Part shown: piece by piece, positions 3,677 through 63,403 of the stretch | How positions within the stretch are numbered: position 1 is the first letter of the stretch | How the letters are laid out: every line of letters starts with the position of its first letter | Assembly: GCA_009784575.1 (NCBI GenBank) | Contig: WRBK01000001.1 | Location: forward strand, 98,832 to 162,831 | Direction of reading: 5' to 3' | Source of the DNA: Defluviitaleaceae bacterium | GTDB lineage: Bacteria; Bacillota; Clostridia; Lachnospirales; WRAX01 | Length of the DNA stretch: 64,000 nucleotides | Notes under the pieces: generated by a model | Database searches by the model: none | The model's input: only the letters and a program-made list of their open reading frames with translations | Told to the model about the DNA's origin: nothing | Position numbers and translations under genes: made by a program

Positions 3677-4840
3677 ATGCAAAAAATAGGTATTATGGGC
3701 GGCACTTTTGACCCTATCCACAATGGACATCTCATAGCGGCACAAGAGGTTTTGCAGAAACTTGAACTAGATAAAATAATTTTTGTGCCTACAGGTACGC
3801 CGCCGCTAAAAGATGCTACAAAAACAACACATGCACATCATAGGCATATACTGTGTGTTCTTGCCACTTTGGATAATCCAAATTTCTCCGTAAGCACCAT
3901 CGAAATTGACCGTGAAGGGACAAGCTATACGATAGATACCATTGAACAGTTGAAAAATGAATATCCTAACGATGAGCTATACTTTATTGTGGGTGCAGAT
4001 GTTGTAGCAAATTTTCATAAATGGCGTCGATTTGAAGATATTTTGCAAATGTGTAAAATTGTAACGACTACAAGACCTAGAAGCCAGCTAAATATTGAAG
4101 AAAATAGAATTATTGCGCTAGAGATTTCTGATATTGATATCTCATCCACAAAAATACGTGAGCTACTTGCGCAAGGCATAATGCCTAGATATCTCATGCC
4201 ACAATCTGCTTGCGACTATATTGTAAAAGAGCAACTATATAGCTACAATCAAAGCTTTGGGCATATCAAGAAAGATTTGCAGATGCAACTATCCGCTGAA
4301 AGGTTTGCACACACACTATCTGTAGTGAAAGAAGCAGAAAGTCTGGGTCGCTACCATTTTCAGGATTCCGAAGCTATTAAGAAATTACGGCTTGCAGCAC
4401 TTTTGCACGATTGCGCAAAGAATTTTTGTGAAGAGCGACCTTTTGATATCATTAACTCTTTATGTCAAGAAAATAATGTTGAACTGGGCGACTTTTTTAG
4501 TAATGCACCTGAGCTTGCACATGGTCTTGTAGGGGCTGCCATAGCTAAGTCAAGATACAGTATAATCGACCATGATATACTTGATGCTATTACCTGCCAT
4601 ACTTTTGGTAAATCAAATATGACAATTTTTGATAAAATTGTATATATTGCAGATTTTATCGAACCAACAAGACCTTATAGCAATGTGCGCAAACATGCTC
4701 GTGAGATTGCCTATAGAAACTTGGATGAGGCGATGATATATATTTTGAAATTCACTATAGAAAAAACAGCCGCAAAAGGACTGCCTATGCATCCAGATAG
4801 TGCGGCGGCACTAAAATATTTGGAGGAAAACCATGGATAA
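3677..4840 (+). CDS. nadD-yqeK: Fused nicotinate-nucleotide adenylyltransferase (NadD) and YqeK HD-domain hydrolase
   Basis: N-terminal GGTFDPIHNGHLIAA nucleotidyltransferase motif; C-terminal LLHDCAKN HD motif; one uninterrupted ORF. Confidence 0.9.
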   Translation: MQKIGIMGGTFDPIHNGHLIAAQEVLQKLELDKIIFVPTGTPPLKDATKTTHAHHRHILCVLATLDNPNFSVSTIEIDREGTSYTIDTIEQLKNEYPNDELYFIVGADVVANFHKWRRFEDILQMCKIVTTTRPRSQLNIEENRIIALEISDIDISSTKIRELLAQGIMPRYLMPQSACDYIVKEQLYSYNQSFGHIKKDLQMQLSAERFAHTLSVVKEAESLGRYHFQDSEAIKKLRLAALLHDCAKNFCEERPFDIINSLCQENNVELGDFFSNAPELAHGLVGAAIAKSRYSIIDHDILDAITCHTFGKSNMTIFDKIVYIADFIEPTRPYSNVRKHAREIAYRNLDEAMIYILKFTIEKTAAKGLPMHPDSAAALKYLEENHG

Positions 4841-13366: not shown

Positions 13367-13645
13367 TTACTTCCAACGCTTTAGCGTAGGCAGAAATTCT
13401 TGTAGCATCTTACGTGCAGCATCGATATCTGGACATACACCATCTGGATTTTCCTCATTTTTCACCAAAAATGGTGCGCAACTCTCAATCATTTCTTCCA
13501 ATGTTTCATTTGGATTATTAAATGCCCCCGAAGGGAAGCAATAATGGCAATAATCCTCACTCTTGCTACCATCGGCATTTTTGCCGAATAACTCATCTGA
13601 TGTCATTGGCATACCGCAGCTTTGACAAAAAATCATAGTTTCCAT
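13367..13645 (-). CDS. Putative zinc-ribbon protein
   Basis: CQSCGMPM...YCHYCFPSGAF two-Cys-pair pattern. Confidence 0.75.
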   Translation of the reverse strand: METMIFCQSCGMPMTSDELFGKNADGSKSEDYCHYCFPSGAFNNPNETLEEMIESCAPFLVKNEENPDGVCPDIDAARKMLQEFLPTLKRWK

Positions 13646-13895
13646 TGTAATTCCTCCGTTTATTTTAATTTGTATTGAATACCACTGAAAGGCAGATAAC
13701 TTTCATATGGTTTTAGCATTGAGACTTCTGGTATTCATGCACCCCCTCAAACCCCTATCATTTATTATATTTATATAATACACAACATAACCTGACAACT
13801 GCATGTCATAATATAAAATTATTTTATATCAACTTACTACCTATTTTCACATATTTATGCTATAATTGCAATAAGAAAAGGAGGAAATAGAAGAT

Positions 13896-51065: not shown

Positions 51066-51469
51066 CTACTTCCCATAAAACATCCTTTTGCTCCCCAAAT
51101 AATCCTCCACCTTCTCAATGCATTCGCCGAACCGCTGAAAATGCACAACCTCCCGCTCGCGCAGGAATTTGATTGGGTTTGCTATTTCTGGCTCATTGCC
51201 TATGAGGTCTAGTAGGTATTCGTAGGTGGAGCGGGCTTTTTGCTCTGCTGCCATGTTTTCGTAGAGGTCAGTTATTGGGTCGCCTTTGGACTGTATGCTC
51301 ATTGCGCTCCATGGTATGCCTGCGGCAGATTGTGGAAAGACCGCAAGTCCGTGGTCGGCGTAGTAGGGGTCTAGCCCTGCCTCGCGCATCTCCTTAGCTG
51401 TTGCGCCTTGGGTTAGCTGTGTTACCATTGCGCCTATCATCTCCAGATGCGCTAGTTCTTCTGTACCTA
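51066..51469 (-). pseudogene. cotJC: cotJC C-terminal part (manganese catalase-like spore coat protein), separated from its 5' part
   Basis: ...GTEELAHLEMIGAMVTQLTQGATAKEM... to stop at 51066; in-frame continuation found at 56396-56582. Confidence 0.93.
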
Positions 51470-51480
51470 CATCGTGTACA

Positions 51481-52389
51481 TTAATGGCGGCTTCGTCTGT
51501 GTCTATTGAGCATATCTTCTGCTTTTTGGAATGCTTCGCGGCTGATTATAGGGGCATGATGGTCTTTTATGATTATAAATTCCTCTTCGCCTTGGTTTTG
51601 TTTTTTGTCATGGGTTAGATAGTCAGGTGTGAAAGTCTTTTTCTGAACTAGGTCGCCGCAGTATTTTTCATTGCGTAGTATTTTGTGGATGGTGGTGTGC
51701 GACCATTCTTTGCGACCTGTTATTGTTGTGTATCTTTCTTGTGAAAGGGTGCGGGCTATGGCGTGGCAACCCATGCCTTTGTTTATGTACATGTCGAAGA
51801 TAAGGCGAATTATGCTTGCGCCCTCTTCGTTTATGTGCATCTTGCCATTGCGCACATCATAGCCTAGCATACTGCGCCCAAAGACTACACCTTTTTCCAT
51901 CTGCCGCTTTTGCCCCCATTTTACGCGCTCGGAGGTTTTGCGGCTTTCTTCTTGGGCTATGGATGCCATTATGGTTAGGCGTAGCTCTGCATCTGCATCT
52001 AAGGTGTTTATATTGTCATTTAAAAAAATAACGCCTATGCCATGTTTTTTTAATTCGCGGGTATATTGTATACTATCTAGCGTATTGCGGGCAAATCTTG
52101 ATATTTCCTTAGTGAGGATGAGGTCAAAATCCCCTGATACGGCGGCTGATATCATGCGGTTAAAATCCTTGCGTTTTTTGGTGCTGGTGCCAGAAATGCC
52201 TTTATCCGCAAAGATTTCATGTAGTTGCCACTTCGGTATTTTTTGTATGTATTGCTCAAAATATGCCCGCTGGGATTCTAAGGAGTTTGCTTGGTCGAGA
52301 CTATCTGTAGAAACGCGGCAATATGCAGCTACGCGCTTGTATTGCGCAGCTTTTGCACGCATCTTGTTCATTTTCTCATATTTTTCCAT
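51481..52389 (-). CDS. Serine recombinase (resolvase plus recombinase domains; no C-terminal zinc ribbon/coiled coil)
   Basis: AAYCRVSTDSLDQANSLESQ catalytic Ser region; ISRFARN; ends at AEDMLNRHRRSRH*. Confidence 0.93.
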   Translation of the reverse strand: MEKYEKMNKMRAKAAQYKRVAAYCRVSTDSLDQANSLESQRAYFEQYIQKIPKWQLHEIFADKGISGTSTKKRKDFNRMISAAVSGDFDLILTKEISRFARNTLDSIQYTRELKKHGIGVIFLNDNINTLDADAELRLTIMASIAQEESRKTSERVKWGQKRQMEKGVVFGRSMLGYDVRNGKMHINEEGASIIRLIFDMYINKGMGCHAIARTLSQERYTTITGRKEWSHTTIHKILRNEKYCGDLVQKKTFTPDYLTHDKKQNQGEEEFIIIKDHHAPIISREAFQKAEDMLNRHRRSRH

Positions 52390-52512
52390 TTTGCATCACC
52401 TACCCATATATCTTATGTATACATACTTGACTTTTATGGGCTAAATCGCTATAATTCAGATATATAGTTATATTACCATATTCTAAATTTATTGAGATGA
52501 GGGGATATTGAC

Positions 52513-53235
52513 ATGAACGTGAATAAAAGAGGTTTTTTTAGCTGGCTGTTTTTCCAAGACCCTGATAAGGTGAAAGGGAAGGGCAATGCGACATATGTGC
52601 ATGATTCAGTTACTGCTCCTGCACAAGATAGATGGTTAAGGCTAACAATTATTATGAATGGTGCGGCAAGAAGCATGGAGATGAGAGCATTCCCTATAAA
52701 CATTGGGCGTATGGATTCATATGGAGGCATAAAGATAGACGATAAGAATGTTTGTAAACAACATGCTGTGATAAATCTGCAAGATGGAATTTTAACTATA
52801 ACTGACAATAACTCTAAAAACGGCGTGCGTGTGGGTGGAAATAAAATTGTGCCGAATATAACGACACCTCTGGCATGTGCAGATAGTGTGCAGATAGGCT
52901 ATGCAGAGATTGTTATTGATGATTTTTCTGGTTCTTTATCTAGCTTTGGCATTGACAGCACAGCTTTTCCCGACAGTGTCGGATATGCACCACAAAAACC
53001 GCAAGTTGATATACCACAAGAATCTGTGGCGGCAGCAAACCCTGCTAACAATACCTGCTCTGGCTGCGGCAATACAAATAATCCTGAAAGCAAGTTTTGT
53101 AAAGGTTGCGGCAAACCTATGGGCATCGTCGCCCCTGCCCCTGCCCCTGTTAAGCCATTTTGTGATAAATGCGGCGCGAAGAATGTGAATATGGCTAATT
53201 TCTGTGCGGGATGCGGAAATAATCTTCAGCAATAA
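52513..53235 (+). CDS. FHA-domain protein with two C-terminal zinc ribbons (element cargo)
   Basis: FPINIGRMDSYGGIKIDDKNVCKQHAVINLQDGILTITDNNSKNGVRVGG; CSGCGNTNNPESKFCKGCGK; CDKCGAKNVNMANFCAGCG. Confidence 0.9.
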   Translation: MNVNKRGFFSWLFFQDPDKVKGKGNATYVHDSVTAPAQDRWLRLTIIMNGAARSMEMRAFPINIGRMDSYGGIKIDDKNVCKQHAVINLQDGILTITDNNSKNGVRVGGNKIVPNITTPLACADSVQIGYAEIVIDDFSGSLSSFGIDSTAFPDSVGYAPQKPQVDIPQESVAAANPANNTCSGCGNTNNPESKFCKGCGKPMGIVAPAPAPVKPFCDKCGAKNVNMANFCAGCGNNLQQ

Positions 53236-53253
53236 TAATTTCTGGAAGGCGGG

Positions 53254-56200
53254 ATGATTATGTCAAAACAGAAAAGACGAATTAAGCCTATGCTTAGGGG
53301 ATTAATTGCAAGCTTTCTTGCGATTATTTTGTTATTTGCTACCCCTTTTGCGCCCACGGTATATGCAAACGACCCGCGCGATGCACTTTTAGGCGTGTGG
53401 CGCGGTACATATGTAAATAATTTGGGGATAAATGGCTATGAATTCATAATATTTAGGGAGGGCGCGGACTATTTGGCCGTGGTACATTTCTTCCCTGTTG
53501 AAGGTAGTCCTGCTGGGCAACAGTCTGGCAGCACGCTAAATAATGTGATTATAAGCGATACTGCTGGATGGTTTGAGATAGTGCCGTTTATGGATTTGGA
53601 TATGCCGTCTGGATGGACGGCATCTGGGCAGGCTGTTACGCTTAGTGGTGGTGGCGCAACCATGACAGGGCATATTCGTAATTCGCCAGAGTTTACGCTC
53701 GATGTGGCCTTGGTAGGAAATACGGACTTTCCGTTGGCTGGCTGGATAAGCCATGACCATATTGCGGATATACATGGTGTTTGTATTTTTTGCGATATCT
53801 TTGTCGGCGATGGCATAGCTGGTTTTATAATGAGAATCTATTACGACCCTATGGCAGAATCTGGAAATAGATATGCCAATTGGCAATACAACGAAGTGTG
53901 GATATCTGATGTGGACTGGTTTAGAGATGCATCACGCGCCCTTAATGAGCTATGGGAAGTTGATGTTATCGATATGTGGTTTGTGGAAAACAGACTATAT
54001 GTGGATTTGAATAATTTTCACCCTGGTGGCTCTAGCGGCGGCTTTTCTGCCACAACCGCACTAATTTTGTCGCTTGCTAGCATTCCAAATGTAGATGAAA
54101 TTGTGGTTATGGTGAATGGCGCAAGAGATGTAGAGAGCGACCATTTTTCGCTTAGGGGCATTTTTGAAATTACAAGGAATAATGTGGATGCTATTTGGGG
54201 GTGGGATGGCAGTGAGCCTAGTAGGATATTACAAGTGCCAGACCAACCTGTCGAGTTAGAAACCCTTAGCCAATTTTTCCAAACATGGCAAGATGCCTAT
54301 ATCGCGCTTTTGCGCGAGTATTCAGGTAGGGAGCTTGTACAATGGCATGGGCTGGGCGGGCAGTTTGTATTGTTTGATATAGACCTAGATGGCGTGCCAG
54401 AGCTGCTTGTGGCTAATAGCTTTCATTTTCAGGGGTATTTTGCGGTGTATACATTCGCTAATGGTGTGATAGTGCCTATAGAATCTGAGGTTTTTTATGA
54501 TTATGGAGTTATGCTTGCTCCTTTGGGAAATAGAGCAGGGATTATAACAGACAGCTTTGAGGCTGGGTTTTCATCGACTGCCTTGATGGTTATTGAGGGT
54601 CGTAGGCTTGTGGCAGAAACAAGACTGCATTCTGCCAGCACGTTTGCAACTGGAAATATTGCTACATGGCAAATAGACGGATGGGCAGTGCCAGAGGCTG
54701 AATTTGAAGCAGCTTATAGAGCGATTATTGGTGAACATGGCGAAAATGAATTGATAGAGCGACATGATATATCAGAACCAACCATACAAAATGTGATTTT
54801 TGGATGGCAACCAAGAGCAACGTTTTTTGAGGCAGAATCTGGACCAAATCAATACATAATAGCACCAACGCCTCAACATCTGCTCTTTGTTCCGCAGCCA
54901 TGGGTTTTGCAAGATGTAACGGAGCAGATGGCGGCAAATCAGCAGATTCGTAATGTAATACAAGGGCTAACGCCTGACCAACGAAATTCTGGTGATGCGA
55001 TGAATATGGCTACATTACATATAGAAAATTTGCAACGAAGAGGCACAACGCAGCCTTTGCCACAAAGCGGAACTATAGATGCAGGCATGTTGCTTGCGGC
55101 ATCTAGTGCGGCTGACAATATTCATGCAGAAATAAATAGTGCGCTTGCTTTTGAGAATATGAGCTTGATGCGCAATCTGCGTACAAATGTTAATTTTGTT
55201 GCGGCAAATACTGATGGTATGCTATTTGTAAGATTCTCTGATAACCCTAGCCCCATTGCATCTTTTGACAATGTAACTGTGGAAGGGGATTTTGTGTCTA
55301 TCACTGTAGCGCGTGAACATGCCTTGCAAGGCAATGAGGTTAGTGTAAGAATGCCGCAAAACAACGTGGCTATAGTTGCGGCAAGTGTTGGTGGCTTTTC
55401 TGCATTTCTTGCCAGGCTTGCAGATTTCTCCTCGCCATTAACCATTCTTGCCAACTATTGGTCTATAATTGCTATCATCGCACTTGTGGCAGTCGCTATT
55501 ATTTTGGGAATGAATGGTAAGAAATTTAGACTATGGGTTGTGCCGACCTTTGCTGTACTTTTGCTAGCAACCAATATTGGCATGACGCTTTGGGTGATGA
55601 ATTTAAACCAAGACCCCGCTGGTGCTGTAGTGCAAAATAATGAAGAAATGGATGATGCATTAGCGGATGTGGAAATAGAAATGACGAACGGTATACAGGT
55701 TACGCTTTCTTTGCCGACAGATGGTGTGGATATGCCGCAAAATATGGTTCTTTTGAATGCTCATGGGCAACCCCAGCACACAAAATTCAACCCAATTACA
55801 AATACAATAGATGCAACAGTGAGTGAATCTGGTATATTTACATTGGTTGAGCCAGAGATTTTGATTACTGACATAGGTGACAAAAATCCATTAATGCAGG
55901 ATGCTATAATAAGGCTGGTTGCTAGAGACATCATGCAAGGGGCGGAAATGCCAGATGGTAGTATACACTTTAATCCTGATTATGAAATAACATTGCTAGA
56001 CTTTGTCTCTGCTATGGCTGGGGCTTTTAATCGGTCGATAAACTTTCAAATTAGTTTTGATGGTACTACAAAAGCCCAAATGACATCAATGATTGCTGAT
56101 TTGCTGGTTGAGCATAGGGGCTATTTGATGCCATCTGAGCAATATGAGATTGACCAGATACTTTCGAAATATCTTGATAGGCATGATATAGCTTTGTGGC

Positions 56201-56337
56201 TGGAGTTGGATGTTGCGTTGGCTACAAAAACCAATGCGCTTATTTTCAGAGCTGATGGGCTGTTTGCGCCTGATAGTGTGATGACTAGAGGGGATGCTGC
56301 TGTTATAATTTATAGGTTGTTTAACCGCGCATGGTAG
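53254..56337 (+). CDS. Large secreted/membrane protein with SLH-like C-terminus (element cargo)
   Basis: Signal peptide; TM near aa 730-780; C-terminal DIGDKNPLMQDAIIRLVARDIMQG... FAPDSVMTRGDAAVIIYRLF resembles SLH repeats. Confidence 0.75.
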   Translation: MIMSKQKRRIKPMLRGLIASFLAIILLFATPFAPTVYANDPRDALLGVWRGTYVNNLGINGYEFIIFREGADYLAVVHFFPVEGSPAGQQSGSTLNNVIISDTAGWFEIVPFMDLDMPSGWTASGQAVTLSGGGATMTGHIRNSPEFTLDVALVGNTDFPLAGWISHDHIADIHGVCIFCDIFVGDGIAGFIMRIYYDPMAESGNRYANWQYNEVWISDVDWFRDASRALNELWEVDVIDMWFVENRLYVDLNNFHPGGSSGGFSATTALILSLASIPNVDEIVVMVNGARDVESDHFSLRGIFEITRNNVDAIWGWDGSEPSRILQVPDQPVELETLSQFFQTWQDAYIALLREYSGRELVQWHGLGGQFVLFDIDLDGVPELLVANSFHFQGYFAVYTFANGVIVPIESEVFYDYGVMLAPLGNRAGIITDSFEAGFSSTALMVIEGRRLVAETRLHSASTFATGNIATWQIDGWAVPEAEFEAAYRAIIGEHGENELIERHDISEPTIQNVIFGWQPRATFFEAESGPNQYIIAPTPQHLLFVPQPWVLQDVTEQMAANQQIRNVIQGLTPDQRNSGDAMNMATLHIENLQRRGTTQPLPQSGTIDAGMLLAASSAADNIHAEINSALAFENMSLMRNLRTNVNFVAANTDGMLFVRFSDNPSPIASFDNVTVEGDFVSITVAREHALQGNEVSVRMPQNNVAIVAASVGGFSAFLARLADFSSPLTILANYWSIIAIIALVAVAIILGMNGKKFRLWVVPTFAVLLLATNIGMTLWVMNLNQDPAGAVVQNNEEMDDALADVEIEMTNGIQVTLSLPTDGVDMPQNMVLLNAHGQPQHTKFNPITNTIDATVSESGIFTLVEPEILITDIGDKNPLMQDAIIRLVARDIMQGAEMPDGSIHFNPDYEITLLDFVSAMAGAFNRSINFQISFDGTTKAQMTSMIADLLVEHRGYLMPSEQYEIDQILSKYLDRHDIALWLELDVALATKTNALIFRADGLFAPDSVMTRGDAAVIIYRLFNRAW

Positions 56338-56381
56338 GAATTTAAGCGAATTGAAAACCAGCTTATGCATTTAGAACAACC

Positions 56382-56582
56382 CTATGTACACGACATACCT
56401 ATATCGTTCAATATGGCCTTGGCTTCGGGCGTGACCATCGTAAATCTTTGTGAAAGATAGCGTATGGCCGCGCCCAATTCGCCGTCTGGGCCTCCATACT
56501 GCGTAATTATCACCTTTGCCAGCCTTGGGTTGGGCTTTTTTATATTTACGGGGAATTGGAGTTTTTTCTCATAAATCCACAT
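56382..56582 (-). pseudogene. cotJC: cotJC N-terminal part
   Basis: MWIYEKKLQFPVNIKKPNPRLAKVIITQYGGPDGELGAAIRYLSQRFTM...ILNDIG then divergent MSCT*. Confidence 0.95.
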
Positions 56583-56603: not shown

Positions 56604-56897
56604 TTATATTTTGAAATTGGCATCTGTTTCCCATGGCCATGGGTCGGTTATCCATTTCCAGCTATCGTTGCTTGCTGAGGTTTGGTGTCGCATAATTAGG
56701 GGGCCAAAGGTTGTCTCGTAGGCGTTTCGTAGTTTTTCGGCATCTTCAGATACTTGGGAGAAAATGGACAGGGCGTGTGCATCTTTTGGGTTGACATCTA
56801 GGTATAGCCCAAGGTCTACTAGCATGAAATCTAGTATTGACAGGCGTTTTAGGAGTTCTTCTTGGTCATGATGACTATGCATTGCTATTGTCGTCAA
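56604..56897 (-). CDS. cotJB: Spore coat protein CotJB
   Basis: ELLKRLSILDFMLVDLGLYLDVNPKDAHAL...WKWITDPWPWE; RBS GGAGG before TTG 56897. Confidence 0.92.
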   Translation of the reverse strand: MTTIAMHSHHDQEELLKRLSILDFMLVDLGLYLDVNPKDAHALSIFSQVSEDAEKLRNAYETTFGPLIMRHQTSASNDSWKWITDPWPWETDANFKI

Positions 56898-57123
56898 GAT
56901 TTTCGCCCTCCTTTCTTTCGATATTTTGTGAATGAGCATGGGCATGTCTGCCGTGATAGGGAATGTGCAGCTCTGGAAAGATAGTGCCTGCTACAAAACC
57001 ATCTTTTGCGGAAAATAGCTCACAGAGCTTTTGGCGCGGTACATAGGCTCTGCCAAAGCCAATGAATTTCATTTTTGGCACATAGTCTTTGCAATCGTCA
57101 TTAGTTCTTACAGCATTTGTCAT
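56875..57123 (-). CDS. cotJA: Spore coat associated protein CotJA
   Basis: RAYVPRQKLCELFSAKDGFVAGTIFPELHIPY. Confidence 0.9.
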   Translation of the reverse strand: MTNAVRTNDDCKDYVPKMKFIGFGRAYVPRQKLCELFSAKDGFVAGTIFPELHIPYHGRHAHAHSQNIERKEGENLDDNSNA

Positions 57124-57289: not shown

Positions 57290-57466
57290 TTGAAAGCAAC
57301 GGGAATTGTAAGAAGAATTGATGATTTGGGGCGTGTGGTTATCCCTAAGGAGATAAGGCGCACCTTGAGAATAAGGGAAGGTGACCCATTACTGATAATG
57401 TTGGATAAAGTAAAGAAGCGGGAGTTTGCGGTGCTTCAGCTAGGGGAGAGGTTGGATTTTACATAG
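57290..57466 (+). CDS. Short AbrB/SpoVT-type DNA-binding protein (58 aa)
   Basis: MKATGIVRRIDDLGRVVIPKEIRRTLRIREGDPLLIM...; TTG start with AAGGAGGAG RBS; below the ORF track length cutoff. Confidence 0.85.
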   Translation: MKATGIVRRIDDLGRVVIPKEIRRTLRIREGDPLLIMLDKVKKREFAVLQLGERLDFT

Positions 57467-57471
57467 GCAAT

Positions 57472-59295
57472 CTACTTCTTGCTTGGGATTTCGTTCACTA
57501 GGAATGCATCCAGCTCATCGTGAAGCGATGAGAGCATTGGGTAGCAGTTCTTTGAATACCAACTACATAACTTGATTACAGCAGACAAAAAATACTTTGA
57601 TAAGTTCCCATTACCTTCAATACTACATATCATTCCATGAGCAATTTTGTTTCGCAAGTTCGCTCCCGTATCCTCTATGAGCAGCCCTTTGAACATGAAT
57701 AGGAGGTTTTCATCATAGCAGTCAATTAATTCCTCGGAGTTGAAAATCGAAGTCATCAATTTCCATTCTTCTGTGCGGTTCTCGTTGAAATTTGTTACGA
57801 GTCCGCCACATGATTTGACAAGTTCTCTAAAGAGATTTTCGACCTGCGGTACAAGAAGATGTAATGCAGAATAATAATCGCCATTTAGACCTAGGGCAAA
57901 TCCTGTTTTGAAAATGTGTTTCCTGTTATCAGGGATAAACCAATTATGGTCAACTAAAAAATCCATGTCGTTTGCGACAATACCTTTGTGTTCGTTTTGT
58001 ATAATACTTAAAACCATACCCATAAACGATAACGCTGAAAGATCTTGTATCCGTGTCATCATATGTAACATATGTTTTTCAAAAAGAGCATGATTGGATT
58101 TTGGATCGTTAATGTCAAGAGGGGGAATGTGTGCAATTATTTTACCACCACTATCCAGAAGCGTGGTGGTAAAGAGCTTACTGAAAAAGAACTCACTATG
58201 ACTTTGTAGAACTTCATTTTCTAACTCTTGCTTGGTTGGAAAGTGGGTCAGCATACCTAATATCATGATTTTTTCTTGCAAACTTCGTTGGCACAGAAAG
58301 TCCTTTAGTTTAATATATTCTTGTGTTCTGTCGACCTCATGCGACATGACTGGCATTTTCTTAACATACTCACTTTTGAGTGAGTCCATCTCTAGCCTTA
58401 TTCGCTTTACATCATCTGGTCTATTTGCATTGCGGTACAATAAAACAGCCGATTCAAAAAAGTGGATTGCGTGTTGCAAGTCTGATATGCTATCCTTTGA
58501 AATATAATCCCGAGCGAGACCTTCCATGTATGTAGCATAATCATTTTGTGCGATTAGTACGCCTTCATCGTTTTTGAGTTTGCGAAGCAGTTTGATTTTT
58601 AGATCAAAAGCCGACTCTGCTCTTGATATATTATTTTTCTGGCAAGCATCATCAATAATCTTGTTGACGAATACAACATAATCCTGTAGCTTGTTGAATC
58701 CATTGTCTATCATCAGACCAATCATATTAATAGATAAAAAGAGTGTGTCCGTTCCGTCAATTTCTTTAATTACAGAGTCAATATAAGTGCATAAATCCAA
58801 AAAAGAATTTGAGCTATGATTTTTGCCTAGCTGAAGAGCTATTCTATTTGCTTTTTTTATGAAACTAAAATATGTACTCCAATTTTCTTTGTCAAATGTC
58901 GACTTTGCACATTCTTTATACGCTCCGACAGCCTTTACTGCGCATATATAATCTTTCCTAACCGTCCAAAGCAAATCTGATATCCGAGCAATCAAAATAG
59001 GGCGGGATAAATCATCAATAATTAATCTAAGGTTATCCAAATCTTCGTCTTTGAAATCAGATACACTCAAAGGCTGCCCATTATTCAAAACAGCTGAACC
59101 GAACGGAGCGTTTTCTTTCTTAACATCGTGATGTAGTGACATAGCGTTCCCTAGAAGCCTAAAGACAGCTTGCTCGTTTGCGTCCTTAGAACTATCTGCC
59201 AACTTATGCAAGTTGCAACCATAAATAAATGTGTACGTATCAATATCAGTAAACACATCTGTCATCTGCGTAATTATTTCGGGCGTTATTTGCAT
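57472..59295 (-). CDS. DUF4209-like helical protein with HEPN-like RNKIAHG motif (putative defence)
   Basis: 607 aa; GDYYSALHLLVPQVENLFRELV...LRNKIAHGMI C-terminal region. Confidence 0.6.
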   Translation of the reverse strand: MQITPEIITQMTDVFTDIDTYTFIYGCNLHKLADSSKDANEQAVFRLLGNAMSLHHDVKKENAPFGSAVLNNGQPLSVSDFKDEDLDNLRLIIDDLSRPILIARISDLLWTVRKDYICAVKAVGAYKECAKSTFDKENWSTYFSFIKKANRIALQLGKNHSSNSFLDLCTYIDSVIKEIDGTDTLFLSINMIGLMIDNGFNKLQDYVVFVNKIIDDACQKNNISRAESAFDLKIKLLRKLKNDEGVLIAQNDYATYMEGLARDYISKDSISDLQHAIHFFESAVLLYRNANRPDDVKRIRLEMDSLKSEYVKKMPVMSHEVDRTQEYIKLKDFLCQRSLQEKIMILGMLTHFPTKQELENEVLQSHSEFFFSKLFTTTLLDSGGKIIAHIPPLDINDPKSNHALFEKHMLHMMTRIQDLSALSFMGMVLSIIQNEHKGIVANDMDFLVDHNWFIPDNRKHIFKTGFALGLNGDYYSALHLLVPQVENLFRELVKSCGGLVTNFNENRTEEWKLMTSIFNSEELIDCYDENLLFMFKGLLIEDTGANLRNKIAHGMICSIEGNGNLSKYFLSAVIKLCSWYSKNCYPMLSSLHDELDAFLVNEIPSKK

Positions 59296-59316
59296 ATATA
59301 GCTCCTTACTTCTATT

Positions 59317-60342
59317 CTAATCTTCCTTAATCTCATATTTCCTCATAACTCGCTTCTCGATATCTTCAGCAGACGGCAACGTATCCGCCAACTCCTGCGG
59401 CACAAAGTCAGACAACCTATATTCGCTCACGCCGATAGGCTTGTTGATATCCTTCAGCGCATATTCGGCAGTCAGCTTGTCCCTCTCCTTGCAAAGCAAA
59501 ATGCCAATCGATGGATTATCCTGCTCATGCTTCAACATATCATCCACCGCCGAAAGATAGAAATTCAGCTTGCCTGCATATTCCGGTTTGAAATCCGTAT
59601 TTTTCAATTCGATAACGATATAACAGCGCAGCTTGGTGTTATAAAACAGCGAGTCAATATAATAATCCTTGCCGCTAATCTCCAAATGATATTGGTTGCC
59701 CACAAAGGCAAAGCCCGTCCCAAGCTCCATAATCGTCTTAGCTATGCTCGCAACAAGTTCCTGCCCAATTTCGCGCTCAATAATTCCCTCGCGCTGCTCA
59801 ACAAAATCAAAAACATACGGATTTTTGAAAGTCTCAATCGCAAGATTGCTTTGTGATTGCGGGAGTAGGGCTTTGTAGTTTGTTGCCTTCTCACCAATCG
59901 CTTGTCGCTCATAAGTTTTCGTATCAACATAATATTCAAGAGACGATAAAGACCACCCATTCTCAATTGCTTGGGCAGCATACCACAAATACTCATCCAG
60001 CGCTTTGGTTTTGTCAAAAAGATATTTATTATGCGACCATGTCAAAAGTGCAGACACTGCCTGCAGATTTTCCTCATCCTGCACAAGTCGTGCAAATTTT
60101 TTCATGTATTGCAAATTGCGAACAGAAAATCCCTTTGTATCAGGAAAATCCAACCTAATGTCGCGCGCAAGGTTTTCAACAAAGCGATTGCCATAACTGC
60201 TATTTTCAAATATGACTTTGCCGATATTCCAATATAAAACTATCTGCTCACGATTTGCACCAAGTACGGCGCGATATTGCGCCTCTCGGATTGCAATTTT
60301 GATGTTCGCTAGGACTTCCATGTACCCCTTATCATTTATCAA
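59317..60342 (-). CDS. PDDEXK nuclease-domain protein (DUF1016/YhcG type)
   Basis: YWNIGKVIFENSSYGNRFVENLARDIRLDFPDTKGFSVRNLQYMKKFA; YIDSLFYNTKLRCYIVIELKN catalytic D/ExK. Confidence 0.92.
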   Translation of the reverse strand: MINDKGYMEVLANIKIAIREAQYRAVLGANREQIVLYWNIGKVIFENSSYGNRFVENLARDIRLDFPDTKGFSVRNLQYMKKFARLVQDEENLQAVSALLTWSHNKYLFDKTKALDEYLWYAAQAIENGWSLSSLEYYVDTKTYERQAIGEKATNYKALLPQSQSNLAIETFKNPYVFDFVEQREGIIEREIGQELVASIAKTIMELGTGFAFVGNQYHLEISGKDYYIDSLFYNTKLRCYIVIELKNTDFKPEYAGKLNFYLSAVDDMLKHEQDNPSIGILLCKERDKLTAEYALKDINKPIGVSEYRLSDFVPQELADTLPSAEDIEKRVMRKYEIKED

Positions 60343-60367
60343 CATATCGTCCTCCTGTGCTGATAAG

Positions 60368-63300
60368 CTAACGCTCATTAAATATTTTCGAAAGCTCATT
60401 CAAAATTGTGTTACGAACCTTTCCTCTCAAACTGTATCTATCGCCAAAATCACTAAAATGTAGTGACAAGGCCATATTTGATACTCCAACACCATAGCCT
60501 TTACGTGAAAGGAACTTTAAGGTCTTGACGGCTTTGCCTAGGTTATCTCTGGTATTCCAGTTACTTCTTTCGGAAGTATCCATAATTTCAACAAGAGTGT
60601 CACACTCGCTAAGTTTGTGTTTTGCTTCCCAAGTTACAGTTACCGTGCAATCCTTTGGCAGATTTCGCTGCCTATCGTCGGTATTAGCAAAAATAATTAC
60701 CTGAAACTGGATTGGTCCACAGGCATAAAAAGTTAAATCATTCTTCAACGTAGGAAATAAATTATCAACGAAATGACGATATGATATCTGATATGCATCG
60801 TAATATGTAGCTACTCGTTCTTTGATCTGATCAATAGTATACCCTCCATAAATACTACTTGTTTGAATGCCTTCACCTTCGCTTCTTGGCGGAAAGTTTC
60901 TTTTTGGAGTCAGAGAGAATAGTGGGTCAATACCGCTCTCTATAACGCTTGTGATAAGTGCATACAGTATAACGAAACTGATATTATTTTCTCCAAATCC
61001 ATTTCTCTTAAGGTACTCCAAGTTTATTACAGGATGAAATAGCTCCTTAAGTTCTGCAAGTGAAACATTTCTCAAAGATAAACTTGCCCTTTCCGTCTTG
61101 AAGGCCTCAGCTACTACTTCTTTAGGGAGTAATTTCAAGCATTGTTCAAGATATTCACATTGAGCAAAAGGATGCTCGGAAAATAATAAGGAATCGCCCT
61201 CCAAAGTTCTTTTGAGAACTTTATATACTATCTTTACTGCGATTTCGCGGGCACAATCGATCCCATTAAAATAATGTCTTAAGTCATAACTAAAATTTCT
61301 TTGACCATCAGTAAATGAAAGAGTAGGGGTTATGACGCAATCTTGATCATCAACTTTGGTGATGGTCGGGCGAATGTTTGTGAAATCTACAATGACTCTA
61401 TCTGCGATATTGATATCGCTTTCGGCTCCATCGATACAAATGTATATATAGTAATCATTCAAGTTGATACTTCCATCAACTACTGCGACTGCATTTTCCA
61501 AGTCCGCGCTATCCCTAAGCTCTCTCCAAGGGTGGAAACTCTGAATCATACTTGAGAAATGAGTACGCACTATATTTTCGTAACTAATAATTAATTGTTG
61601 AAATAGGTTCTTGCATGCGGCTTCGGTCAAATTGTCGGCATATTCATTTGAAAAGCTATATCTCGCATATAAGCACTTCACATAAAGAGCAAGATTATTT
61701 CCTTCCAGATAATCCAGCAATTTATTTTGAAAACCAGAATTCCTGATGCTCCCAAACATCAGAATCAGAGCGTTTATATATTCATCTTTTTCGCTTGCGA
61801 TACCAATATAATCATAAATCTGATCTTCGCTACTTTCGGCCAAATAGATAGAGCAAAAATATTCTTTAACCGCATCAAACTGAAAGTTAGTAACGCCGTC
61901 ATATTGATAAATCAATTTGCTATCTGTAAGCTCTTTAAACACAACTGACACATCGGAATTTGGCAATATCGACAAAATTTTTTCCGATAATTTAATGTCG
62001 TCCTTTGGGTTCATAGTCATCTCAAAAGCAACAGTAGCTAAAATTTGCCTTAAAGATGTATCGAGAGAATACTTGGGAATCCTTTTGTCCAACAAATTGA
62101 TGATATAGTGGTTGTATACAGCCGCCAGATTTTTTGGCTTTATACCATGCGCTTGTTCTTTTTCTATGAACGAAAGATACATGGACAAAAACAACGGGGC
62201 GCACAAGAAATCTTTTAGGTTTTGACTTACTCCGTGAGTCAACCAAATTCTATAGCCCAAAACTTTGTGGGCAATATCGTTTATTTGTTCTTCGGATAAA
62301 CCTTTCAGTTCAAACTGTTTAAACAAATGGGGCAACATCTTGATTGAGCTATCTCGTTTAGTCGTGACGATCATACCCAAATCACTACTTGTAGAAATAT
62401 CATCTATCTCTTTTAGTAGCACATCGAGGTTGTTTCTGCACTCATCAAGACCATCAAACAACAAGAAAAAATTATTTGACATAAGCCCACTCTTTACACC
62501 GGCAAGCGTCAGTGAAGGTATATAATGACGTAGCTCGGCAAATATACCGCCCTCTAAAGTGTCAAATGACCTACTCCACAAACTACAACGCAAAACAATG
62601 GGCACAACATCGCTCTTGCCGTCTAAATATCTCATTGATAAAATCTTAGCGATGTTATACAGACAATATGTTTTTCCGTATCCAGACTGAGCAGTTATCA
62701 CGGACTTGGATGCATTGATTACATTATACAAGGAAATGGAATTTGAACTCGCGCATACAAACGATTGCTCTGCGCGCCATTCATGCTCTGGTATGTTCAT
62801 TGAAAGCATAGATAAGCAATAATCATCAAATACCCTATTTTGAATTTGATTATCATCAACAAGATGACTCTTCTTTTGATTTAAGACATCGAAGCTAATG
62901 TGACTTTCTAATTCAGTCCAGTGAGTGAGCAAATCGGCAACATCGCATGATAAGATTGGCTTATCAGCACCACCATCTATGACTTTGAATACAGCAATTT
63001 TTGCACCATTCGTCACCAAGTAATACAAAGCTTTTGTCCACATAACATATGAAATAGCTTGCCCCAAAGAGCCTTCAATATTTTCTGAAGGCCTCTTTAA
63101 CTCGACAACCAAAAGAGAGTGGTTTGCTACCCAATTTCTGCTTTCTAATGTGTCTGTTTTATTATTCTTATAATACATTGACGAGAACAAAACAATATCG
63201 GCATACTTTGTTTTCTTTTCGCCGCCAAGGTTCATGTGTACAGGAAATTCCTCAGAACGATTCACTCGAGGATGGCCCAGTGACTCCAATATAGGATTGG

Positions 63301-63403
63301 CTATTTTTGTCCTAACTTCTGTTTCGGATGCCAAAGTCATATTTTTAAAACTTGCAATCTGTTGTAGTATACTGTTATTGCTTTCATCTAGAATGTTTGC
63401 CAT
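60368..63403 (-). CDS. STAND NTPase: N-terminal HsdR_N-like nuclease domain fused to NACHT (bNACHT-type defence candidate)
   Basis: KYADIVLF...LLVVELKRP (PD-(D/E)xK); AQSGYGKTYCLYNIA (Walker A); FFLLFDGLDECRN (NACHT Walker B). Confidence 0.8.
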   Translation of the reverse strand: MANILDESNNSILQQIASFKNMTLASETEVRTKIANPILESLGHPRVNRSEEFPVHMNLGGEKKTKYADIVLFSSMYYKNNKTDTLESRNWVANHSLLVVELKRPSENIEGSLGQAISYVMWTKALYYLVTNGAKIAVFKVIDGGADKPILSCDVADLLTHWTELESHISFDVLNQKKSHLVDDNQIQNRVFDDYCLSMLSMNIPEHEWRAEQSFVCASSNSISLYNVINASKSVITAQSGYGKTYCLYNIAKILSMRYLDGKSDVVPIVLRCSLWSRSFDTLEGGIFAELRHYIPSLTLAGVKSGLMSNNFFLLFDGLDECRNNLDVLLKEIDDISTSSDLGMIVTTKRDSSIKMLPHLFKQFELKGLSEEQINDIAHKVLGYRIWLTHGVSQNLKDFLCAPLFLSMYLSFIEKEQAHGIKPKNLAAVYNHYIINLLDKRIPKYSLDTSLRQILATVAFEMTMNPKDDIKLSEKILSILPNSDVSVVFKELTDSKLIYQYDGVTNFQFDAVKEYFCSIYLAESSEDQIYDYIGIASEKDEYINALILMFGSIRNSGFQNKLLDYLEGNNLALYVKCLYARYSFSNEYADNLTEAACKNLFQQLIISYENIVRTHFSSMIQSFHPWRELRDSADLENAVAVVDGSINLNDYYIYICIDGAESDINIADRVIVDFTNIRPTITKVDDQDCVITPTLSFTDGQRNFSYDLRHYFNGIDCAREIAVKIVYKVLKRTLEGDSLLFSEHPFAQCEYLEQCLKLLPKEVVAEAFKTERASLSLRNVSLAELKELFHPVINLEYLKRNGFGENNISFVILYALITSVIESGIDPLFSLTPKRNFPPRSEGEGIQTSSIYGGYTIDQIKERVATYYDAYQISYRHFVDNLFPTLKNDLTFYACGPIQFQVIIFANTDDRQRNLPKDCTVTVTWEAKHKLSECDTLVEIMDTSERSNWNTRDNLGKAVKTLKFLSRKGYGVGVSNMALSLHFSDFGDRYSLRGKVRNTILNELSKIFNER

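Follow-up and report, generated by a model that had tools for sequence, protein, structure and literature searches.

The cotJC gene in the window (the whole 64,000-nucleotide stretch of DNA that was analysed) is split by a small element encoding its own serine recombinase, and precise removal of this element would restore an intact reading frame. We consider it likely that, as with skin, this cotJC-intervening element is cut out in the mother cell during sporulation; the excision, its timing and its restriction to one cell type are inferred. The features discussed below are, in window coordinates:

51066..51463, minus strand: C-terminal part of cotJC (remaining codons and stop; 398 nt; Pfam Mn_catalase positions 72-196)
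51452..51481, minus strand: right junction attR (element-side arm ATGTACACGATGTA at 51481-51468; crossover GG at 51467-51466)
51464..56401, minus strand: cotJC-intervening element (both 6-bp core copies counted; predicted excised circle 4932 bp)
51481..52389, minus strand: short serine recombinase, 302 aa (Resolvase, 20-168, and Recombinase, 189-295, domains only)
52410..52437, minus strand: possible sigma-E-like (mother-cell) promoter ATA-N17-CATAAGAT, weak
52513..53235, plus strand: cargo, protein of 240 aa with an FHA domain and a double zinc ribbon (Pfam)
53254..56337, plus strand: cargo, predicted surface/membrane protein of 1027 aa with an S-layer-homology stretch at its C-terminus (ORF list, Pfam)
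56384..56413, minus strand: left junction attL (crossover GG at 56399-56398; element-side arm TATGTCGTGTACAT at 56397-56384)
56396..56582, minus strand: N-terminal part of cotJC (codons 1-62 plus core; 187 nt; Pfam Mn_catalase positions 1-63)
56604..56945, minus strand: cotJB, intact (Pfam)
56875..57123, minus strand: cotJA, intact (Pfam)

The split cotJC and the element within it

The N-terminal reading frame covers the first 62 cotJC codons on the minus strand and then meets a stop after MSCT. Joined at a core common to both ends of the element (TAGGTA on the minus strand, TACCTA on the plus strand, at 56401-56396 and 51469-51464), the two halves give 585 nt, that is 194 aa and a stop, and read ILNDIG/TEELAHLEM across the join; the join sequence expected after excision is AACGATATAGGTACAGAAGAACTAG. 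According to Pfam, the halves are successive parts of one Mn_catalase domain. Both are free of stops and frameshifts and are 81-92% identical to the intact cotJC of relatives. Moreover, two members of the family carry an uninterrupted cotJC of 194 aa, which is collinear with the joined protein and 85% and 82% identical to it end to end. No second cotJC copy was found in the window's genome (1.84 Mb searched in 41 contigs, 81% complete).

An earlier note on this locus had proposed the coordinates of the two halves, the TACCTA core and the in-frame join of 194 codons, all of which held to the base when recomputed. The same goes for its element of about 4.93 kb (4932 bp from crossover GG to crossover GG) and for intact cotJA and cotJB genes upstream of the N-terminal part, confirmed with Pfam. 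The check it put forward, collinearity with the intact CotJC of relatives, was passed with both relatives described above, and the second intact cotJC that would have refuted it was not found in the 81%-complete genome. Absent from it were the shortness of the recombinase (only 302 aa, without the C-terminal domains of large serine recombinases and with a stop abutting the attP arm) and the finding that cotJC splitting is widespread and multi-site.

In the excised circle, the ends of the element would meet as ATGTACACGATGTA-GG-TATGTCGTGTACAT, a 30-bp palindromic attP around a non-palindromic GG, with the predicted circle-junction sequence ACACGATGTAGGTATGTCGTGT. The arms are complementary at 12 of 14 positions (P about 3e-6 per centre), a level reached by 2 of the 63,958 centres in the window, and the pairing is well beyond chance. 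It is worth noting that the symmetry argument for the short site is based on two sites only, the second of which (in genome G068) is imperfect. The stop codon of the recombinase directly abuts the attP arm. The idea that the recombinase frame continues across attP in the circle was rejected, as a stop is present before or just after the core in both the window and G068.

Apart from the recombinase, the element carries just the two cargo genes, and nothing in it encodes phage structural or lysis functions. The cotJ genes are expressed in the mother cell. Of the features by which sporulation-intervening elements are recognised, the following are present: insertion inside the coding region of a sporulation gene active in the mother cell, a short direct repeat at the ends, a precise join that restores the frame, and a site-specific recombinase encoded by the element and abutting attR. 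The ATA-N17-CATAAGAT motif places its -10 about 28 nt 5' of the recombinase start. It has 25 matches in 128 kb (both strands), so that about 0.02 would be expected in the 123-bp gap; as it is inferred from sequence alone, a sigma-E-like promoter remains a possibility with weak support.

Two further observations concern the flank of the cotJ genes. An ORF of 58 aa at 57290-57466 (plus strand) corresponds to the first 39 residues of SpoVT, the remainder being absent, and may be a truncated spoVT or a short AbrB-type regulator beside cotJ. A possible defence cluster at 57472-63403 (minus strand) comprises a DUF7380/DUF4209 protein (PADLOC candidate PDC-S39), a YhcG/DUF1016 nuclease (PDC-S02) and a 1011-aa protein with HSDR_N_2 and NACHT.

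Recurrence of split cotJC across the order

The 80 closest relatives of the recombinase were fetched from GTDB genomes; they are 66-72% identical to it over the first 295 aa. A cotJC N-terminal piece lies on the same locus in 70 of them, and in 62 the recombinase stop is at most 700 bp from that piece. The junctions fall at the same GG, and the junction codon is the same as that of the window at about 75 other loci. The attP of these relatives is longer, about 48 bp, with inner arms GCTTCTCT/AGAGAAGC and outer arms GGAACATTTC/GAAATGTTCC. Their recombinase adjoins the N-terminal half of cotJC, whereas in the window and in genomes G011, G164, G068 and G219 it adjoins the C-terminal half.

Some of these elements have features of their own. 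In many full-length elements (loci L041-L120, e.g., L042 11638-11680) the open reading frame of the recombinase extends beyond the junction by tens of bases, antisense to cotJC, and the C-terminus of such recombinases is host-encoded when the element is integrated. The cotJC element of locus L068 (4166-9036) carries cas9, cas1, cas2 and a fourth cas-like gene, i.e., a type II CRISPR-Cas locus. AbiE-like cargo seen by eye in locus L085 had no Pfam match and is not claimed.

Splitting at other codons was sought in 392 genomes of the window's order. A cotJC match was obtained in 235, and partial matches were followed up. In about 90 of the 235, cotJC is present only as complementary pieces with no intact close copy, and about 18 genomes hold three or more pieces. 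These totals are approximate because contig ends in draft assemblies also interrupt genes. The breaks cluster near aa 31, 65, 98 and 134 of cotJC: 109 of 125 piece starts and 109 of 111 piece ends lie within 8 aa of them, compared with 36% of positions (the tally was typed by hand and is descriptive only). The pieces are collinear, on the same strand and on one contig in about 30 genomes, where they are 1.5 to 53 kb apart. Among these are the single-contig chromosomes G040, G119, G162, G231, G254 and G331, and in G185 and G223 two elements and three collinear pieces share one contig. Different cotJC sites are associated with different recombinase types. Many of the elements are small (about 2 to 10 kb), and some occur in cultured gut commensals. 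Isolates with the element include Roseburia sp. 1XD42-69 (L059), Blautia sp. An249 (L063) and Parablautia muri D42-62 (L087).

Three loci deserve separate mention. Downstream of the split gene, locus L170 (G094 C3) has three extra cotJC tails (aa 98-191, at 640-906, 3938-4216 and 13547-13825), as if elements at the aa-98 site supplied their own replacement 3' end. Locus L192 (G144 C68) has two copies of the cotJC C-terminal half about 3.5 kb apart on one contig, possibly tandem elements. The 1.5-kb site-B insert of locus L157 (G385 C99 99000-102500) contains only a 305-aa recombinase-like ORF and is apparently a remnant.

The short recombinase and its host

The window enzyme (302 aa) stops right after its Recombinase domain and has neither the zinc ribbon nor the coiled coil. 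The same truncated form is found at the same cotJC site in G068 (288 aa) and G219 (285 aa), while the zinc ribbon is present in the full-length cousins at loci L117, L164 and L168. All three short enzymes carry complete Resolvase and Recombinase domains, and they form one clade among the full-length cotJC recombinases (UFBoot 93, SH-aLRT 98, 94% of bootstrap trees). In an order-wide search with the G068 enzyme, the three were the top matches and the only clearly short ones in the close group; a further close match, in G271, lies at a contig edge and its length cannot be judged. The best NCBIfam resemblances are to CcrB and XisF, far below their cut-offs. With the catalytic and Recombinase domains present and the zinc ribbon with coiled coil missing, the window enzyme is a short derivative of the large serine recombinases and not a canonical member. 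Some members of the recombinase family are carried by phages. The viral contigs searched contained no relatives of the short clade, and the sole match to the intact attP pattern in viral contigs lies within a phage structural gene and was judged to be due to chance.

An ORF of about 60 aa lies upstream of the recombinase in 82 of 100 family members and in none of the three short ones, although several of the members without it are cut by contig ends. It has no Pfam match; that it is a directionality factor is a suspicion only, its function being inferred. As to candidates for such a factor, no small ORF was found beside the window recombinase, and a trans-acting factor elsewhere is not excluded. 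In a Listeria integrase, deletion of the coiled coil leaves an enzyme that fails to integrate but needs no factor to excise between any pair of sites on one molecule, attL x attR among them (PMC3783163). In the one case tested, removal of the zinc ribbon weakened DNA binding by an integrase about 25-fold (PMC3783163). This speaks against activity of the short enzyme, unless the compact palindrome or the expression level compensates.

G068 and G219, which belong to the same genus, share the same element, in which an aminotransferase gene is divergent from the short recombinase and the latter abuts the C-terminal half of cotJC. Between them, dN is 0.06 and dS 1.01 for the C-terminal half, and dN is 0.25 and dS 1.16 for the recombinase. 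The low dN relative to dS therefore indicates that purifying selection maintains the split cotJC as well as the short recombinase. Between the window and its relatives dS is saturated, and selection since the window's own insertion is not measurable.

Neither Spo0A nor SpoIVA was detected in the window's 81%-complete genome, although 13 of the 16 genomes of the family have each. One same-genus genome is also without detected Spo0A and SpoIVA, though a third genome has both. The sporulation regulators were sought in a sample of about a quarter of the window's genome, in which sigE with spoIIGA and sigF are present. An N-terminal half of sigK (locus L260 1394-1008, minus strand, contig C9 of the window's genome) ends in SRCIENAIGA followed by a stop, and its break, CIEN/AIGA, is the classical skin insertion point; the C-terminal half was not located in the sampled quarter. 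The possibility that the lineage has lost sporulation, suggested by the missing Spo0A and SpoIVA, is weakened by sigE-spoIIGA, sigF and the split sigK. The genome is thus likely to be that of a sporulator with two interrupted sporulation genes, cotJC and sigK.

Interpretation and comparison with known systems

In the explanation that we favour, a serine recombinase would have integrated a small non-phage element at cotJC codon 62, with the crossover GG inside a palindromic attP, and both halves would be kept in frame by the host. During sporulation, recombination of attL with attR by the element's own enzyme in the mother cell would release the 4932-bp circle and restore cotJABC for spore-coat assembly. 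The forespore chromosome would retain the element, which would therefore be inherited. A less firm proposal is that domestication has made the short recombinase an enzyme of excision only: the parts it has lost, zinc ribbon and coiled coil, impose integration and prevent attL x attR recombination, so their loss would remove the need for a directionality factor, and control would then rest on expression. Mother-cell excision has precedents in skin, SPbeta, gin and yin.

The earlier note's reading of the locus as a cotJC-intervening element is strongly supported by the collinear join, the palindromic ends, the intact relatives and the elements at the same codon elsewhere, and the precedents it invoked, sigK (skin) and spsM, were both confirmed in the literature. 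It had left undecided whether the element is developmentally excised or locked; we favour excision, which itself was not observed.

The strongest rival is a locked insertion, in which the recombinase is truncated, there is no directionality factor, and the two halves are remnants of a lost cotJC. In its favour are the absence of the zinc ribbon and coiled coil from the window recombinase, the absence of the small upstream ORF, the failure to find Spo0A and SpoIVA in the 81%-complete genome and the reported partial redundancy of cotJC homologues in C. difficile (PMC11222575). Against it, the halves are free of stops and frameshifts and remain 81-92% identical to those of intact relatives, the short recombinases remain under purifying selection as a single clade that spans two families, the attP arms are undecayed and other sporulation regulators are present. 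We regard it as unlikely, since the split cotJC is under purifying selection in the species pair with the same element and sigE/spoIIGA, sigF and a split sigK are present.

Less probable still is an ordinary mobile element for which cotJC is a harmless attachment site, with random or stress-driven excision, no sporulation programme and only incidental integrity of cotJC. The varied, mobile-like cargo of the relatives, e.g., the CRISPR-Cas locus of L068, and the phage-borne members of the recombinase family would fit this. However, that several recombinase types favour one mother-cell gene, and that split cotJC is under purifying selection, fits rebuilding on need better. The two readings overlap, because random excision would also rebuild cotJC in some cells. 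An assembly or binning artefact, conceivable in a draft genome of 41 contigs, is all but excluded here by the exact-codon junctions with palindromic ends and the related split in G011, and is refuted for the phenomenon by the same architecture on the single-contig chromosomes G119, G162, G231, G254 and G331.

A bolder version of programmed excision would make cotJC a docking gene for independent elements at four sites throughout the order, with up to three programmed mother-cell excisions, and with one clade, including the window's, whose recombinase was domesticated to stand-alone, excision-only action by loss of the zinc ribbon, the coiled coil and the accessory small protein. Taken as a whole, we lean slightly against this version on the present evidence.

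Only a few genes, in most cases in single strains, are known to undergo programmed DNA rearrangement during sporulation. Here, more than a third of the genomes sampled from one order that have cotJC have it split. With elements this small, it becomes testable how many excisions one gene tolerates, what makes sporulation genes favoured docking sites, and whether a serine integrase can turn into an excisionase free of a directionality factor. For annotation, a split cotJC is easily recorded as unrelated fragments or pseudogenes, and some of the elements have functional-looking cargo, e.g., the Cas9 locus. No cotJC-intervening element was found described in the literature searched, a search that was not exhaustive; within that limit, the cotJC elements are a large, apparently undescribed group of a known kind of programmed element. 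The C. difficile phage phi027 adjoins a cotJC homologue and may be related.

Among known systems, skin in sigK (B. subtilis, C. difficile) likewise interrupts a mother-cell sporulation gene, encodes its own serine recombinase and leaves a precise, frame-restoring join. The cotJC element differs from it in hitting another gene, in being much smaller and without phage genes, and in its short recombinase with no directionality factor found; moreover, the cotJC of relatives may hold up to three elements. The window enzyme shares the Resolvase catalytic and recombinase domains with the large serine recombinases (A118/LI integrase, CcrB, XisF), but the zinc ribbon and coiled coil are missing from it and from the G068 and G219 enzymes. 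The gin element in gerE of B. cereus ATCC 10987 is also non-phage, with a serine recombinase and a palindromic attachment site; however, it measures 28.6 kb, has three full recombinases and needs GirC plus GirX (PMC5595907), compared with 4.9 kb and one short recombinase here. Likewise, vfbin (spoVFB), vrin (spoVR), SPbeta (spsM) and yin (yabG) are prophage-like or intervening elements in mother-cell sporulation genes, with targets other than cotJC. Of these, yin is known from a single strain, whereas one order alone has cotJC elements in about 90 of 235 genomes.
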